A stretch of 40,194 nt of DNA from an uncultured Alphaproteobacteria bacterium (lineage in GTDB: Bacteria > Pseudomonadota > Alphaproteobacteria > CAAHEQ01 > UBA3637), in contig CALXVS010000013.1 of NCBI GenBank assembly GCA_944392145.1, positions 1 through 40,194 on the forward strand. The letters are read 5' to 3'. This document shows positions 86 to 36,632 of this stretch, one piece after another. The notes under the pieces are model-generated. The model ran no database searches. It was not told where the DNA came from and saw nothing but the letters and a program-made list of their open reading frames with translations. A program made the position numbers and the translations under genes. Every line of letters begins with the position of its first letter. Within the stretch, counting starts at the first letter, position 1.

Positions 86-1285
86 ATGAAAAAAGACATA
101 ACGACACAAACGATTTTATCCACAGACACCGGTCGTTCTATGGTAGAGATGTTGGGCACGTTGGCGATTATGGGTGTCTTAAGTATCGGAGGGATAGCAG
201 GATATCGGTATGCGATGGATAAATCCCGCGCGAACGAGACGATAGATGAACTGAACAAACGGGCGTTTGTGTATGCCACACAGGTTTTAAATAACGAGAT
301 ACAGTCCGGAGAACCTTTAAGCAACGGGGAGTTTGGGGACAAGACCGCATTGGGGTATGATGTAGAAGCGAATAAGTCGTATTATCCGGACGAATTTGAA
401 GTAACGTTAAGCAACTATCCGTCAGAGGTATGTCGTGATATTTTAAAAAATTACACAATTCCGTATCAGATTATCGTTTCGGGGAAGGTTTATGATCCGA
501 CCTCGGATAATTATAGCATATGTGGTGAAGATGGCGAGACGGCCCCGGAAACGTTGTTTGTGTATACGGCGGATTTAAATCAAGAAAAGGAAGAAGGTCT
601 AGAGAGAAGCGATACTGTCGGTGTTCGGGTCTGCACACCCGGAGAGGAGTTTGCGGCATATGGCCAATGCTATCCGTGTGACAGCAGTGGAAGCTATCAA
701 ATCGGCAGTCAGTATGAATACGAATTGTGCCGCGCGTGTGGACGCCGGATGGCAGTTAAAAATCGTTGCGTTCCGGGGTGCATGGCGGGACAGGTATATC
801 ATGCCGGTGAAGAGGAATGTTTGAAGCCCGAGTGCGTAACGAACAGTGATTGTGACAGCGGGGAATATTGCAAGTTGGATTCAAGCCAAAACGATTCTTC
901 CTGCACGGAAGCGCCGACCTACGGCACGTGTGAAAGCGCCTCGGACACACAGCCGGAGGATGTTACCGGCGTTGGGAGATACCAAAAGTCCAGCAGCGAA
1001 ATGAACTGGTGGAGTGCACAGAACTACTGTCAGGCCATTGGGGGACGTATGGCTACGGTTGCTGATTTTGGTTGCGGCGATGACTATGTGGGTAAGAATA
1101 CAACGGGGAGTTGTGATTCGGATAATTTTAAGGCCTTCCAGACGGCCTTTGGCACAAGCGATGTTCTTTGGACAAGCGATTCGTATAATGCGTGTTACGC
1201 TTACCTCGTCCTTCTGGACAATGGTGGCGTGATCTACCGCGGTCGCGACCTCAACATCTACGCATTGTGCCGCGTCGGGGATTAG
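86..1285 (+). CDS. Prepilin-like Cys-rich protein with variable C-type-lectin-like C-terminus (copy 1)
   Basis: A 399-residue secreted or surface protein. The N-terminus fits a type IV prepilin: a short polar leader ending in Gly16, then R-S-M-V-E with Glu at +5, then a hydrophobic helix (about 22-44) followed by a charged pilin-like alpha region. The middle (about 185-275) is rich in CxxC pairs, as in small disulfide-bonded repeats. The C-terminus (about 305-399) has a WWSAQNYC...GGRM motif and ends ALCRVGD, which suggests a C-type-lectin-like fold. The nearly identical paralogue is at 21620-22855. The last 39 codons vary between the copies in a way expected of a DGR target. By inference, prepilin peptidase processes the protein and the lectin domain is displayed for binding. 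No pilus assembly genes are in the window. The ligand is unknown. Confidence 0.88.
   Translation: MKKDITTQTILSTDTGRSMVEMLGTLAIMGVLSIGGIAGYRYAMDKSRANETIDELNKRAFVYATQVLNNEIQSGEPLSNGEFGDKTALGYDVEANKSYYPDEFEVTLSNYPSEVCRDILKNYTIPYQIIVSGKVYDPTSDNYSICGEDGETAPETLFVYTADLNQEKEEGLERSDTVGVRVCTPGEEFAAYGQCYPCDSSGSYQIGSQYEYELCRACGRRMAVKNRCVPGCMAGQVYHAGEEECLKPECVTNSDCDSGEYCKLDSSQNDSSCTEAPTYGTCESASDTQPEDVTGVGRYQKSSSEMNWWSAQNYCQAIGGRMATVADFGCGDDYVGKNTTGSCDSDNFKAFQTAFGTSDVLWTSDSYNACYAYLVLLDNGGVIYRGRDLNIYALCRVGD
1172..1279 (+). other. Putative DGR variable region (VR), copy 1
   Basis: This is the C-terminal coding segment, from just after Trp codon 1169-1171 to the codon before GAT-TAG. Aligned without gaps to 22742-22849, it has 27 differences at codon positions 1 and 2, in 19 codons. 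Only two third positions differ (GCA/GCT and GGG/GGA). Changed codons end in C or T except the first (ACA/ATA). The constant GCG-TGT-TAC and TTG-TGC-CGC-GTC blocks frame the variable sites. Every difference can be explained by an A in a template (AAC/AAT codons). The template repeat itself was not found. Confidence 0.72.
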
Positions 1286-1315
1286 AGGCACAAATAAATC
1301 GGGTTCTTTTGCCTT
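1286..1315 (+). repeat. Identical 3' flank after variable region, copy 1
   Basis: The 30 bases directly after the stop codon are identical to 22856-22885, and the two loci diverge completely at the next base. The segment carries AGGCA near its start and TGCCT near its end, a weak stem with a long loop. Conservation just 3' of a variable region fits an IMH-type homing determinant or a hairpin required by DGRs. It could also simply mark the end of the duplicated unit. Confidence 0.7.
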
Positions 1316-8991: not shown

Positions 8992-9903
8992 TTAACCGAT
9001 TAAGAACTTCTCGGCACTTAGTGCGGCGACACAACCGGTTCCGGCAGCAATAATAGCCTGTCGAAAAACGGGTTCTTGCACATCACCGCAGGCAAATACG
9101 CCGGGAACAGATGTTTTTTGCCCGAACGTTGTCTTGATGTATCCATATTCATCTAAATCCAATTGATTTTGAAATAAATCCGTATTGGGATGGTTGCCAA
9201 TGGCAACAAACGTTCCATCAATATCTAAAAAGGATTCTTTTCGTTCAATTTGATGAAAAAGTTTTAATCGCTTTAATTTTTCTTCACCGATGAATTCTTG
9301 AACAACTGTATCCCATAAGACGGTGATTTTGGGATTTTGCATCAGTTTTTCGGTTAAAACTTTATCTGCCCGTAAATGTGACCCCCGATGAATCAATGTG
9401 ACACGATCGGCGACTTCTGATAAAAAGAGGGCTTCATAAACCGCAGAGTTGCCACCGCCGATGACGGCAACATGCTTTTTGCGATAAAAAAAGCCGTCAC
9501 ATGTGGCACAAATTGAAATGCCTTTTCCTTTAAAGGTTTCCTCGCCCGGCACATTTAACCATTTAGGAGAAGAGCCTGTTGCAATAATAAGAGCATCCGC
9601 AGTCCATTCTGCGCCCATCTCTGTCGTAATAATAAACGGCTTTTTTGAAAAATCAATACGAGTTGCCATTTCATACTTAACGCGAACACCCAATGACTCT
9701 GCTTGTTTTTGAAACTCGGACATCAAATCAATACCTGAAATTTTGGGAAAACCGGGAAAATTTTCAATTTCATGTGTCAGCATCAATTGACCGCCGGCTG
9801 TCGGACCGGTTAATAAGGTTGTTTCTAATCCCGCTCTAGCAGCATAAATACCGGCTGTCCAACCGGCCGGTCCCGAACCTAAAATTAAAATACGTGTGTG
9901 CAT
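8992..9903 (-). CDS. trxB: Thioredoxin reductase
   Basis: A 303-residue FAD/NADPH-dependent enzyme that reduces thioredoxin and so supplies cytoplasmic thiol reduction. FAD motif GSGPAGWTAGIYAARAG is near residue 9. The redox-active CATC motif is near residue 132 (ICATCDGFF). The NADPH motif GGGNSAVYEA follows. The C-terminal FAD motif ends VFACGDVQEP. Length and domain order are canonical. It stands 27 bases after greA on the minus strand, so the two may be co-transcribed. Confidence 0.96.
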   Translation of the reverse strand: MHTRILILGSGPAGWTAGIYAARAGLETTLLTGPTAGGQLMLTHEIENFPGFPKISGIDLMSEFQKQAESLGVRVKYEMATRIDFSKKPFIITTEMGAEWTADALIIATGSSPKWLNVPGEETFKGKGISICATCDGFFYRKKHVAVIGGGNSAVYEALFLSEVADRVTLIHRGSHLRADKVLTEKLMQNPKITVLWDTVVQEFIGEEKLKRLKLFHQIERKESFLDIDGTFVAIGNHPNTDLFQNQLDLDEYGYIKTTFGQKTSVPGVFACGDVQEPVFRQAIIAAGTGCVAALSAEKFLIG

Positions 9904-9930
9904 GGTAAGTCCCTCTAACTTATTATGTAA

Positions 9931-10407
9931 TTACAAATAACGTACATTCAATATTTCATATGATTTTTCCCCTTTAGGTGTTTTGACGTCTACGATGTCA
10001 CCGATTTCTTTACCGATTAATGATTTAGCCAACGGAGATAATAAGGAAATCAGACCTTTTTCTAAATTAGCTTCGTATTGCCCAACAATTTGGTATGTTT
10101 TATCATTTTCTGTTTCAAGATCTTGAATATCTACCGTTGCACCAAACAATACTTTTTTACCGGATAACGTTTTTGTATCAATCACTTGTGCATGGGATAA
10201 TGCCCCTTCCAGTTCTTGAATACGCCCTTCTGTAAAACTTTGCTGTTCCCGAGCCGAATGATATTCGGCATTTTCCGATAAATCGCCATGACTGCGTGCT
10301 TCTTCAATGGCGGCAACAATTCGGGGCCGTTCAACAAACTTCAGGCGTTTTAATTCTTCGTTTAATTCTTCATACCCTTGAACGGTCATTGGTACTTTTT
10401 CTTCCAT
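9931..10407 (-). CDS. greA: Transcription elongation factor GreA
   Basis: A 158-residue factor that stimulates transcript cleavage by backtracked RNA polymerase. It has the N-terminal coiled coil with [16 protein letters not shown] and the acidic tip in [16 protein letters not shown], then a C-terminal FKBP-like domain containing [14 protein letters not shown]. Length is standard. It lies upstream of trxB and 100 bases downstream of the peptidase gene. A short A/T-rich spacer precedes it. Confidence 0.97.
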
Positions 10408-10507
10408 GTTTTTTCCTTTCAGTTATAAAAAAGAACACCACGGTCTAACGCCGCGGCATTCAAATTATTTTTTAAAAATGTATGAAAGAAAGTATAATCT
10501 TATTTTT

Positions 10508-11350
10508 TCAATTTGCAAGCTTTTTATTTTCTTGAAAACAGGAAAAAGTGTTGATTGTTTGTTCGGGATCCACCCGAATGTCATGCCAACTTAAAACAAA
10601 ATGCAAATGCGGGCCTGTTGAACGACCGGTTGTGCCAACTGTTCCTATCTTTTCCCCGCGACGAATCGGCTGATCGGGGTGAACAGAGATTTCATGTAAA
10701 TGAGAATAGCTTGAAAAAATACCGAATCCGTGGTCAATCAAAACTGTTTTTCCGGAATAAAACATGTCCGGGTGTGTTAATTTAACAATACCGTCGGCCG
10801 GAGCAACAACAGGTGTCCCGATGGGGGCGGCATAATCTGTTCCGCTGTGGCCTGCGCTTTTAATCCCGTTTAAAATGCGTTTAGAACCAAATTGACTTGA
10901 AATACGTTTAAAATCAGTAACCGGACGTTGAAAGCAAGTTGGAATTTTATAGTAATTATTTGATTCTCTGGCTTTTTTTAATTGTAAAGCCTCTTGTTTT
11001 ATACGGTGTTGATCTTGGGGGGAAGGTGTTACTTTTTTAGGAGGAAGGCCATTTACGATTTCTTCTACCCAAGCGCGTTTTTGAACGGAAAAAACGAGGG
11101 TATCCGTTTTTCCTTGAACAGTTCGGGTGAATGTAACAGTATCATCTGCCCATGTCGGTAAAGCTGCCACAAAATGTCCCGTATCGTTTGCTTGAATCAA
11201 ATGATCGTAAAGCAAAACTGTTTCATCGGGATTTAAGGTGCCATAAATCAAAGCTCCTTGTTTCAAAGGGGTGTGAATTTCAAACCCGTATGTTGGTATT
11301 ATCAGACCTGATAGAATTAAAAAAAGAATTACTTTATAATTACTTTTCAT
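10508..11350 (-). CDS. Secreted M23 (LytM-type) metallopeptidase
   Basis: A protein of about 280 residues with a signal peptide (hydrophobic about residues 5-22), an N-terminal beta-rich domain, and a C-terminal M23 domain. Zinc motifs are visible: HSGTDYAAP (HxxxD), the SHLHE segment and HLHFVLSW (HxH). It probably cuts or regulates cutting of peptidoglycan cross-links in the periplasm. I use the ATG at 11348-11350, with AAGGTG upstream; a GTG four codons earlier is possible. The start overlaps the xseA end by 11 bases, so translation may be coupled. Confidence 0.93.
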   Translation of the reverse strand: MKSNYKVILFLILSGLIIPTYGFEIHTPLKQGALIYGTLNPDETVLLYDHLIQANDTGHFVAALPTWADDTVTFTRTVQGKTDTLVFSVQKRAWVEEIVNGLPPKKVTPSPQDQHRIKQEALQLKKARESNNYYKIPTCFQRPVTDFKRISSQFGSKRILNGIKSAGHSGTDYAAPIGTPVVAPADGIVKLTHPDMFYSGKTVLIDHGFGIFSSYSHLHEISVHPDQPIRRGEKIGTVGTTGRSTGPHLHFVLSWHDIRVDPEQTINTFSCFQENKKLAN

Positions 11351-21619: not shown

Positions 21620-22855
21620 ATGAAAAAAGACATAACGACACAAACGATTTTATCCACAGACACCGGTCGTTCTATGGTAGAGATGTTGGGCACGTTGGCG
21701 ATTATGGGTGTCTTAAGTATCGGAGGGATAGCAGGATATCGGTATGCGATGGATAAATCCCGCGCGAACGAGACGATGGATGAGTTAAACAAGCGAGTGG
21801 TTGTGTATGCCACACAGGTTTTAAATAACGAGATACGGTCCGGAGAAACTTTAAGCAACGGCGAGTTTGGGGATAAAACCGCTTTGGATTATGATATAGA
21901 AGCAAAAAAATCGTATTATCCGGACGAATTTGAAGTGACGTTAAGCAATTATCCGTCAGAGGTGTGTCGGGATATTTTAAAAAATTACATGATACCGTAT
22001 CAGATTATCGTTTCGGGGAAGGTTTATGATCCGACCTCGGATAATTATAGCATATGTGGAGAAGATGGTGAAACGGCCCCGGAAACGTTGTTTGTGTATA
22101 CGGCGGATTTAAATCAAGAAAAAGAGGTTTTTGAAGAAAAAGAAGTAACAACTTATTATTACGATGAGGTCTGCACACCCGGTGAGGAGTTTGCATCACA
22201 AGGCCAATGCTATCCGTGTGACAGCAGTGGGAGCTATTATATCAACGAACAGTATGAATATGAATTGTGCCGCGCGTGTGGACGCCGGATGGCAGTTGAA
22301 AATCAATGCGTTCCGGGGTGCATGGCGGGACAGGTATATCATGCCGCTAAAAAGGAATGTGTAACGCCCGAGTGCGTAACGAACAGTGATTGTGGCAGCG
22401 GGAAATATTGTAAGTTGGATCCAAGCCAAAACAATTCCTGCTCGGAAGCGCCGACCTATGGCACGTGTGAGGAGTCCACCTCGGATACACCGAAGGATGT
22501 TACCGGCGTTGGGAGATACCAAAAGTCCGGCAGCAAAATGAACTGGTGGAGTGCACAGAATTATTGTCAGGCCATTGGGGGCAGGATGGTAACGGTCGCG
22601 GATTTTGGCTGCGGCAATGATTATGTGGGCGCAGGTAAGACGGGGTATTGTAATGCGGATACAACAACGTCCTACGAAGGGACACGCTCCGCGAATATGG
22701 TGGCGTTTCAAAAGTCCGGTTTGACAAAGACAAAATATTGGATAAGCAATTCGCATACTGCGTGTTACCGTTACGTCGTCGTTCTGGGCAGTGGTAGCGT
22801 GGGCACCAACTTTCACAGCGACGTCAACTACGCTTTGTGCCGCGTCGGAGATTAG
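21620..22855 (+). CDS. Prepilin-like Cys-rich protein with variable C-type-lectin-like C-terminus (copy 2)
   Basis: A 411-residue paralogue of the gene at 86-1285. The prepilin-like N-terminus (Gly16, Glu21, hydrophobic helix) is identical over about the first 50 residues. The first about 160 residues are nearly identical, a linker near 168-182 differs completely, the CxxC-rich middle is similar, and an indel of about 12 residues precedes the last 39 codons. The C-type-lectin-like segment starts at NWWSAQNYC and ends ALCRVGD. Differences before the last 39 codons look like ordinary divergence with many synonymous changes; the last 39 codons do not. It is probably surface-displayed. Two GC-rich hairpins follow. 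Confidence 0.88.
   Translation: MKKDITTQTILSTDTGRSMVEMLGTLAIMGVLSIGGIAGYRYAMDKSRANETMDELNKRVVVYATQVLNNEIRSGETLSNGEFGDKTALDYDIEAKKSYYPDEFEVTLSNYPSEVCRDILKNYMIPYQIIVSGKVYDPTSDNYSICGEDGETAPETLFVYTADLNQEKEVFEEKEVTTYYYDEVCTPGEEFASQGQCYPCDSSGSYYINEQYEYELCRACGRRMAVENQCVPGCMAGQVYHAAKKECVTPECVTNSDCGSGKYCKLDPSQNNSCSEAPTYGTCEESTSDTPKDVTGVGRYQKSGSKMNWWSAQNYCQAIGGRMVTVADFGCGNDYVGAGKTGYCNADTTTSYEGTRSANMVAFQKSGLTKTKYWISNSHTACYRYVVVLGSGSVGTNFHSDVNYALCRVGD
22742..22849 (+). other. Putative DGR variable region (VR), copy 2
   Basis: This is the counterpart of 1172-1279. Variable residues, in order, are I, N, H, T, R, V, V, G, S, S, G, T, N, F, H, S, D, V, N, against T, D, Y, N, A, L, L, D, N, G, I, Y, R, G, R, D, L, N, I in copy 1. 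Apart from the first (I/T), all are reachable from AAY by changing A. Constant codons lie between them. The segment is richer in NNC codons than its AT-rich surroundings. Confidence 0.72.
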
Positions 22856-22885
22856 AGGCACAAATAAATCGGGTTCTTTTGCCTT
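22856..22885 (+). repeat. Identical 3' flank after variable region, copy 2
   Basis: Identical to 1286-1315 over 30 bases. Beyond it copy 2 continues into a GC-rich stretch with GGCGGG/CCCGCC arms (about 22887-22919), not shared with copy 1. Confidence 0.7.
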
Positions 22886-34199: not shown

Positions 34200-36632
34200 A
34201 TGAACGAAACGGGTGTTTTTGATATGATGGTTCAAAGTGCGTCGTCACTGTCAACACTGGTGGCTGTGATGGGTATTTTAGGCGCTATGCTGATCATGTC
34301 TATCTTTGTAACGAAACTGGGAGATATCATTCTTCCCAAGCCCAAAGAAACCCGTGTGTCTGATTTTTTACCGTTTTTGAAATTGGATGAAGATGGGGCG
34401 ACCATTCATTTGCGGAACGGTTCCTTTGCCCGTGTGTTTGAGGTGCAAGGGGCCGATACAACCCTTTTAATGCCCGAAGAGCGGGCCGTTTTGGCCGAAG
34501 CGCGCAAGCGTTGGATTGACTCTATGGCCGAATTGGAAATCACCTCACGCGTGATTACGATTCGGGAAAAACAGCCCCTGAATGAAGAAAAACTGTATAA
34601 AGACAGTAAGATGCTGCAAACCATTTCAACGTTGTGGATTGAAAATTTGCATCGGATTTTCAAAAACAAACATTATATTGTTTTGTCCGTCAATGACCGC
34701 AAAACCGCTTTAAAGGATTTGGATCAGGCAACAAATGCTCTGACCTCTATTTTGGATATGTATCAACCGATTTTAATTTCCGAAAAAACACCCTTTAAAC
34801 ATCAGGATAAAAGTCCGTTTTGGCTGTTTGCACAATTGGCAAGTCCGTTGTCCGTTCCCAAACCTATTGTGGGAATTGAAGAAAAAGAATATTTAAACGC
34901 CTTACTAACGGCGGATTATATTCATTTTACGAAAGACGAAGGGATTATTCGCTTTTTTGCCGGTGACCGTGAAAAATTGGCGATTGCTGTCGGTATTCGC
35001 AAACCCGGTGATTATATGGATGAACAAATGGTCGCCGATATTATCAGTATTGATTGCGAATTAACTGTGATTCACAATATCAAGGCCATTCATCCGTTGA
35101 CGGCAAAGGCGTTATTGGCACAACAACAGCGTATGGCCTATTTGACCACGTTTTCGGCCAATGTGGCGGCACAATATAATACGGCCCTGCAATGGATGGA
35201 TCCATCCGATGCGGATGCGCAAACATTGAATGAATACGCCATGACGGTGTTGGTATTTGGCGATTCGGTTGAAGAAATTCGCTTTGGGCAAGAGGAAATT
35301 GAAAAAATTTGCCGCTTGCACAACGTGACGCCGGTGCGCGAAGGGTGGGCGGCTCAGGCGGTCTTTTTTGCCCAATTCCCGACGTATGAAGTGTATCCGC
35401 GAACATTCCTGTATCTGTCACGTGTAGTTGCATGCAGCATATGTATTGATAAAACGGCCGAAGGACGTCAAAAGTCGGATTGGGGCCCTGTGCCGTTGAC
35501 ATATTTCAGGACGATTACCGGCACGGCTTATGCGTTTCAATTTCACGTTTCCGAAGAACCCTATGCCGTGGCGCATACTGCGCTAATCGGTCCGACGGGA
35601 CAGGGGAAAACAACCCTGTTTTCGTTTTTAGCCGGTCAGGCGATGCGTATTCCCGATTTGCACACCTACTTTTTTGATCGTAACAACGGTGCTAAAGTGT
35701 TCGCGTTGATGCAAAATGCGCCGTATGTGAAATTTGACGGTGGCGAAGAATCGGTTTCGTTAAATCCCTTTGCTATGCCCGATACCCCTGAAAACAGGGC
35801 TTTTTTGCGCACATGGATGCGGGATATTACGGGCGGGGCAGATGCCGTTTCGGAACAAGAAATTGCTCGTGCCGTAACGACAGCGTTTGATTATTTGCGC
35901 CCCAGTGAACGCCTAATGAAAAACCTGTATAAAAGCTGTTTTGCCCCCAACAGTTATATGCGGCGGGAATTAAACCGTTGGATTAACGATGACCAATACG
36001 GCCGCATTTTCAATTCGCCCAGTGATAATTTGGATTTAACCAGTCGTTATATGGCGTTTGATTTTACAACCATTTTCCAAGATGCCGTCTTGGCACCGGC
36101 GGTGATCAGTTATGTCATGCACCGCATTCATACGTTGGCATCGGCTATGGGAACGCCGTCGTTGATTATGATTGACGAAACCGCGCCGATGTTGGAACAC
36201 GAAATGTTCAAAGAAAGCTTTATTGTGGGCTTAAGAGAAGGACGTAAAAAACGTCAGGCGTTTTTGTGCGCGTTCCAACAGCCGCGCTTTTTGGATGATA
36301 ACGGCTTGGGGGACGTGATTCGGGGACAATGTCAAACGGTGATTTTCTTCCGTAACCCGCAGGCCAATCCGTCGGATTATGCAACGTGGAATTTAACCCC
36401 ACGTGAAATGAATTTTGTTATGGGTAAAGAGTTTACCGACCGCAAATACGCTATTTTGGTCAGCCGACCGGCCATTAAAGAATCGGTTATTTTGGATGTC
36501 GATTTAAGTGGGTTGGGCCCGTATCTAAAGGTTTATTCATCCGGTAACAAAAACGTTTTGTTGGCGGAACAGTTATCGCGCCAAATTCAAGATACCGATG
36601 CGTTGGTTCAAGCCTATTTAGAACGAGCTTGA
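34200..36632 (+). CDS. virB4: Type IV secretion ATPase VirB4
   Basis: An 810-residue ATPase powering T4SS assembly and substrate transfer. A membrane-proximal segment (about 10-42) precedes the CagE/TrbE/VirB domain (to about 430). The AAA+ domain has Walker A GPTGQGKTT (about 463), Walker B LIMIDET (about 656) and a VGLREGRKKRQAF segment. The C-terminal AAA+ half is complete. The virB3-virB4 pair resembles the split T4SS of Rickettsiales and relatives, where virB6 genes usually follow. Here no virB6, virB8-11 or virD4 follows within the window; repeats begin at the stop codon. Confidence 0.95.
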   Translation: MNETGVFDMMVQSASSLSTLVAVMGILGAMLIMSIFVTKLGDIILPKPKETRVSDFLPFLKLDEDGATIHLRNGSFARVFEVQGADTTLLMPEERAVLAEARKRWIDSMAELEITSRVITIREKQPLNEEKLYKDSKMLQTISTLWIENLHRIFKNKHYIVLSVNDRKTALKDLDQATNALTSILDMYQPILISEKTPFKHQDKSPFWLFAQLASPLSVPKPIVGIEEKEYLNALLTADYIHFTKDEGIIRFFAGDREKLAIAVGIRKPGDYMDEQMVADIISIDCELTVIHNIKAIHPLTAKALLAQQQRMAYLTTFSANVAAQYNTALQWMDPSDADAQTLNEYAMTVLVFGDSVEEIRFGQEEIEKICRLHNVTPVREGWAAQAVFFAQFPTYEVYPRTFLYLSRVVACSICIDKTAEGRQKSDWGPVPLTYFRTITGTAYAFQFHVSEEPYAVAHTALIGPTGQGKTTLFSFLAGQAMRIPDLHTYFFDRNNGAKVFALMQNAPYVKFDGGEESVSLNPFAMPDTPENRAFLRTWMRDITGGADAVSEQEIARAVTTAFDYLRPSERLMKNLYKSCFAPNSYMRRELNRWINDDQYGRIFNSPSDNLDLTSRYMAFDFTTIFQDAVLAPAVISYVMHRIHTLASAMGTPSLIMIDETAPMLEHEMFKESFIVGLREGRKKRQAFLCAFQQPRFLDDNGLGDVIRGQCQTVIFFRNPQANPSDYATWNLTPREMNFVMGKEFTDRKYAILVSRPAIKESVILDVDLSGLGPYLKVYSSGNKNVLLAEQLSRQIQDTDALVQAYLERA

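Follow-up and report, generated by a model that had tools for sequence, protein, structure and literature searches.

The window, a stretch of 40,194 nucleotides that makes up the whole of contig C13 in a 49-contig, 98%-complete metagenome-assembled genome (MAG) of 1.45 Mb, carries two members of what we take, with a probability of about 0.9, to be a dispersed array of at least 11 targets of a diversity-generating retroelement (DGR), in which a cassette acting in trans rewrites the tips of pilin-anchored lectins. DGRs usually rewrite a single neighbouring gene. That the variable regions (VRs) of the lectins are of DGR origin is near certain, and the most probable account of how they are rewritten is action in trans by a cassette that lies in an assembly gap. 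Each protein has a type IV prepilin-like anchor, followed by a cysteine-rich stalk and, at its C-terminus, a C-type-lectin domain. According to the mechanism proposed here, a DGR reverse transcriptase (RT) together with Avd would copy an AAC/AAT-rich template RNA, misincorporating at adenines, and the cDNA would replace the 3' ends of lectin genes at unlinked loci. The outcome would be a distinct binding face for each copy, carried on a surface pilus or pseudopilus, with the cassette lying now in an assembly gap of the MAG, or having been there recently.

Both targets of the window are encoded on the forward strand. Gene A (86..1285, 399 residues) and gene B (21620..22855, 411 residues), delimited by translation and alignment, show 79% protein identity when aligned pairwise and have the same architecture, in which a class III prepilin leader is followed by a Cys-rich stalk and then by a C-type-lectin domain that contains the variable region. 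In gene A, the prepilin-like N-terminus (86..220) reads TG/RSMVEMLGTLAIMGVLSIGG, with G at -1 and E at +5; the Cys-rich stalk comprises residues about 183-282 (632..931), for which Cys-repeat matches were weak only, and the C-type-lectin-fold domain spans 1001..1282. By alignment, variable region A occupies 1169..1285, with hypervariable NNY codons at 1184-1243 that run on to about 1258 and a GC-rich constant 3' end, and variable region B occupies 22739..22855. Over the last 39 codons, the two genes differ 13, 14 and 2 times at codon positions 1, 2 and 3, respectively; 19 codons are altered at position 1 or 2, all but one of them (18/19) ending in C or T in both genes, and the two third-position differences fall in codons 32 and 37. 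Upstream, 360 aligned codons differ 48, 39 and 67 times at positions 1, 2 and 3, which is ordinary divergence, so that the 3' end is unlike the remainder of the gene (Fisher p = 1e-4 for the two codon-position profiles). These counts reproduce what an earlier note on this DNA had read from the pair, namely 27 first- and second-position differences in 19 codons with only two third-position ones, the C or T ending of 18 of the 19 changed codons and ordinary divergence upstream. Its further statement that only A is needed in the template holds for the window pair, but fails once nine more paralogues are added, because of five off-site changes in gene B (ACA>ATA, GAT>AAT, GCT>CGT, which counts as two bases, and CGC>CAC) at otherwise near-invariant sites. 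Gene B thus accounts for five of the ten off-site exceptions among the 11 copies and is the least clean of them.

In a pattern search of the whole assembly, the variable region turned up 11 times, spread over nine contigs. When aligned by codon, these copies read TGG ACA AGC GAT TCG NNT NNT GCG TGT NNC GCT TAC NNC GTC NNT CTG NNC NNT GGT NNC GTG NNC NNC NNC NNT CGC (NNC)n TAC GCT TTG TGC CGC GTC, and their third bases are almost all fixed. In the fixed-length part, the predicted template-A sites (N) are polymorphic in 24 of 24 cases, against 7 of 54 other sites (Fisher p = 3e-14), as expected of a DGR target mutated at AAY codons; the alignment of all paralogues, which the earlier note had proposed as a check, thus gives a stronger signal than the one it had claimed. 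Base counts at the N sites are A 113, G 73, T 47 and C 31, while the non-N sites hold ten minority letters in total across the 11 copies. Averaged over all pairs, the distance between copies amounts to 0.67 at A sites and 0.03 at the remaining VR sites, against 0.19 upstream. Moreover, the distance at N sites does not track the upstream distance (rho -0.26, no positive correlation), and the blocks common to the variable regions are no longer than chance would give (longest run 6, permutation p = 0.52), which together argue for independent rewriting and not for drift, selection alone or gene conversion. Within the 26-codon block, no more than one off-site change is seen in any of 10 of the 11 copies, while upstream regions differ by 10-28%; the rewriting of the variable regions is therefore more recent than the divergence of the genes. 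The copies differ in how many codons separate CGC from the constant 3' end, which may point either to a slipping (AAC)n template or to the use of more than one.

At the protein level, the N-terminus TG/RSMVEMLG, followed by a hydrophobic helix, is by sequence a class III prepilin leader, with its G(-1) and E(+5), and a prepilin peptidase (Peptidase_A24) is encoded on contig C36; none of the pilin models of Pfam gave a match. A structural model of the C-terminal domain, built from three sequences (pLDDT 74, pTM 0.70), was compared with the PDB, and the best 50 matches are all C-type-lectin domains, headed by LOX-1 (E 1.9e-4). As in other DGR targets, the variable region, here the last 39 codons, therefore lies at the 3' end of a gene with a C-type-lectin fold. 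A model of the full-length protein (pLDDT 42) was too poor for use. The prepilin-like lectins may assemble into a surface pilus or pseudopilus, and they would probably be displayed at the surface and bind ligands.

The retroelement predicted from these genes is found in relatives. A query template was written from the target genes, with AA at every NN, before any search of relatives was made, the expected AAY-rich lectin template being defined by a match to GCGTGTNNCGCTTACNNCGTCNNTCTG... This inferred template matches G041:C69:840-923 at 89% identity, a non-coding, AAC/AAT-rich stretch (TTGCAACGCGTACAACGTGAACCTGAACAATGGTAACGTCAACAACAACAATCGCAACAACAACAACTACGCG) with an Avd-like gene on one side and a GLPIGNLTSQ reverse transcriptase on the other; Avd was named by three libraries, the G041 gene matching bAvd. 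In another relative, G013, there are three such templates and one RT (on C50). Between its C32 template and the VR of the lectin gene next to it, 16 of 16 mismatches fall at template A and none elsewhere, and the same is true of all eight mismatches between its C50 template and the downstream lectin gene; the lectin domain family is thus a genuine DGR target in close relatives. G013, G016, G019, G021 and G023 each have a Cys-rich or pilin-like gene with an Avd-template-RT cassette immediately downstream of it. The DGR RT motif, [ILV]GxxxSQ, is present as LGNQTSQ in the RT on contig C4 of the present genome and as IGNLTSQ in the RTs of relatives, and for both the best solved structure is 8ub7; a match to the phage RT family phrog_1423 was also obtained. 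Taken together, the 11 paralogues, the Avd-template-RT cassettes of relatives, the A-only mismatches in G013 and the fold search bear out the claim, made from the window pair, that AAY codons have undergone DGR adenine mutagenesis in a protein combining a C-type-lectin fold with a prepilin-like N-terminus.

Some cassettes of relatives look incomplete. The G013 templates on C16 (L067 1505-1575) and C32 (L063 1496-1566) are AAY-rich orphans: both follow a pilin-like or lectin gene, and neither has an RT in its vicinity. Cognate-type RTs carry an in-frame stop in G041 C69 (L062 987-2132; TAA) and in G023 C72 (TAG), and that of G015 C1 is truncated; these may be either decaying cassettes or assembly errors. 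Two relatives rich in targets are G027, which by kinship codes belongs to the same family and a different genus, and G028, with 37 and 28 lectin-domain copies, respectively; their variable regions bear the DGR signature, yet no RT (RVT_1) was matched in either assembly. In G027, where 14 of the 37 copies were alignable, all 20 of 20 NN sites are variable among these, and differences at third bases that are linked to one another point to at least two templates.

In the genome under study, blastn with the inferred template returned only the 11 variable regions from its own assembly, an A-tolerant scan of the retrieved loci likewise gave variable regions only, and a cognate lectin-type RT, a type seen in relatives only, was not found in the 98%-complete 49-contig assembly. 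The single RT and the single Avd-like gene of the assembly both belong to a different DGR. The absence of RT and template repeat, reported at first for the window, hence extends to the whole assembly with regard to the lectin template and cognate RT, and the genome-wide search that the earlier note had suggested yielded an RT of another DGR, with the lectin template present only in relatives. The lack of a template in a closed genome had been named there as a refutation; it is formally what is seen in this MAG, which is not a closed genome, and absence from an incomplete 49-contig assembly is no proof. Regarding its conclusion that diversification acts in trans on dispersed targets, dispersal is confirmed by the 11 copies on nine contigs, whereas we infer action in trans, the one RT of the genome belonging to another DGR. 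A contig end truncates five of the 11 lectin genes on the 5' side (those on C36, C38, C17, C43 and C33), and the gene at C13:86 begins 85 bases from such an end. Since many targets thus lie at contig breaks, and since the cassettes of relatives lie downstream of pilin-like or Cys-rich genes, a cassette hidden in a repeat gap is plausible. Weighing against the trans-acting cassette are the lack of a lectin template or cognate RT in an assembly whose sole RT serves a different target, the target-rich G027 and G028 assemblies without any RT, and the ten changes outside predicted A sites.

These same observations would also fit a diversification by DGR that took place in the past and is now frozen, the cassette having been lost and the lectin repertoire being inherited as fixed, which we consider unlikely, albeit a reading to be taken seriously. 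In its favour are the absence of cognate RT and template in this assembly, and of any RT in G027 and G028, the off-site changes accumulated in gene B, the internal stop of the G041 RT and the truncation of the G015 RT. Against it speaks the near-absence of off-site changes in 10 of the 11 copies compared with the upstream difference of their genes, and several copies are cut by contig ends, so that the cassette could simply be unassembled.

The sole RT gene of the assembly belongs to a complete cassette on contig C4 consisting of Avd, template repeat (TR), RT and target (L032 8443-12492, L032 being C4:45000-64900), with the TR at 9079-9193, the RT at 9444-10523 and the VR at 10704-10818; the Avd-like gene upstream of the RT scores below the curated cut-off. 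In the target, a variable segment near the N-terminus is fused to a MoxR-like AAA ATPase, and the target gene is followed by a DUF2201 metallopeptidase/VWA gene. To our knowledge, a VR so far from the C-terminus is unusual. G009, which belongs to another genus, has a copy of this DGR that shares 99.26% identity across 5779 bp and has an identical TR, and 28 of the 29 sites that differ between the two variable regions are at template A, indicating that the C4 DGR was recently active; a mis-binned G009 contig would alter the owner of the copy, not the existence of two alleles. The C4 DGR resembles DGR-linked MoxR-vWA systems (PMC7159879), a likeness that implies no assignment. Upstream of it (L032 2583-7080), a serine recombinase piece, a portal-like piece, an S49-type protease and small Rz-like genes look, on reading, like a degraded prophage.

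It is doubtful that the RT and Avd of C4 also serve a lectin template that the assembly lacks. Although this cassette is complete and recently active, and G013 shows that three templates can accompany one RT, the C4 RT and the RTs adjoining lectin templates in relatives belong to different lineages (about 26-40% identity in matched parts), there is no lectin template in the C4 stretches that were read, and the C4 template, when tried as the lectin template, matches its own target only. Another tentative reading, to which we likewise give little credence, is that of a family-wide lectin-pilin repertoire of 11 to 37 dispersed genes per genome, with enzyme and template having no stable place on the chromosome that bears the targets, but coming and going by way of a mobile element or as orphan templates; if true, a visiting retroelement would rewrite a resident adhesin repertoire in trans. 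As G027 and G028 also lack an RT, loss of the cassette or a visiting element keeps some weight. A viral origin of the pilin-lectins was considered and discarded, since neither the template nor a pilin-lectin was matched in IMG/VR, and phages gave only two short N-terminal matches. A scan of GTDB r220 retrieved one distant relative only, an alphaproteobacterial MAG from rabbit gut ('Lapin' being read as rabbit). Finally, gene conversion among silent and expressed copies in the style of pilE/pilS, or positive selection, without a retroelement, can be set aside as most improbable: paralogues are many and their upstream parts have mosaic motifs in common, but random bases are restricted to the AA of AAY codons with constant third bases, runs shared among variable regions do not exceed chance and the predicted template is present in relatives.

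A trans-acting DGR with dispersed lectin targets, as proposed here, has counterparts among known systems. Like the DGR of Bordetella phage BPP-1 (Mtd, Avd, TR, Brt), it would involve Avd, an AAY template, an RT of the same family and a C-terminal C-type-lectin variable region; unlike it, the lectins here are cellular, with many unlinked targets, a prepilin anchor instead of a tail fibre and no local cassette in the genome. Closer in organisation is Thiohalocapsa PB-PSB1, with nine DGR loci, 15 targets, trans action and degenerate loci (PMC10907252), where several dispersed CLec targets, loci without RT or TR and inferred action in trans are all found; its targets are conflict-system sensors, whereas those described here are secreted pilin-like lectins, whose lectin domain occurs in as many as 37 copies in one genome. 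Cyanobacterial remote variable proteins (PMC7517822) are also CLec paralogues spread across the genome with homology to the template, but mostly cytosolic signalling proteins, and the portion of their description consulted mentions no prepilin anchor. In gut Bacteroides, type V tip pilins are an adhesive pilus component diversified by DGRs (as cited in PMC12632263); according to that citation, the Bacteroidales proteins are lipoprotein type V pilins, in contrast to the class III (type IV-like) prepilins of these Alphaproteobacteria. DGRs, targets in trans and DGR-diversified pili are already known (PMC10907252, PMC7517822, PMC12632263). In the literature searched, dispersed DGR-diversified lectins on type IV-like prepilins of gut Alphaproteobacteria were not found, nor was any paper joining DGR and prepilin. 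A reduced gut alphaproteobacterium (1.45 Mb) with scattered pilin-anchored lectins, all randomised at the same codons, would connect a type IV-like pilus surface with targeted hypermutation in gut bacteria that are uncultured. It also opens two questions to testing: by what route a single template gets to many unlinked targets, and whether a repertoire persists after its retroelement is lost.

Some further features deserve mention. A 7-bp inverted repeat, TTGTGCC...GGCACAA, crosses the end of variable region A (1265..1293, forward strand), and an 8-bp one, TTTGTGCC...GGCACAAA, stands at the end of variable region B (22834..22864, forward strand). The former could possibly form a homing cruciform; the arms are present, yet folding is no better than that of shuffled sequences (z -0.4, not significant, for A and z -1.2 for B), and the cruciform was not retained. 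A 947-aa open frame of the same family in G000 (C10:46000-50736, L043), with tandem CxxC modules and a lectin end without the NNC signature, is apparently a non-diversified relative of the pilin-lectins. Within the window, the neighbours of both targets are otherwise mostly housekeeping genes, and a gene for a VirB4/CagE-type type IV secretion ATPase lies at 34200-36632.
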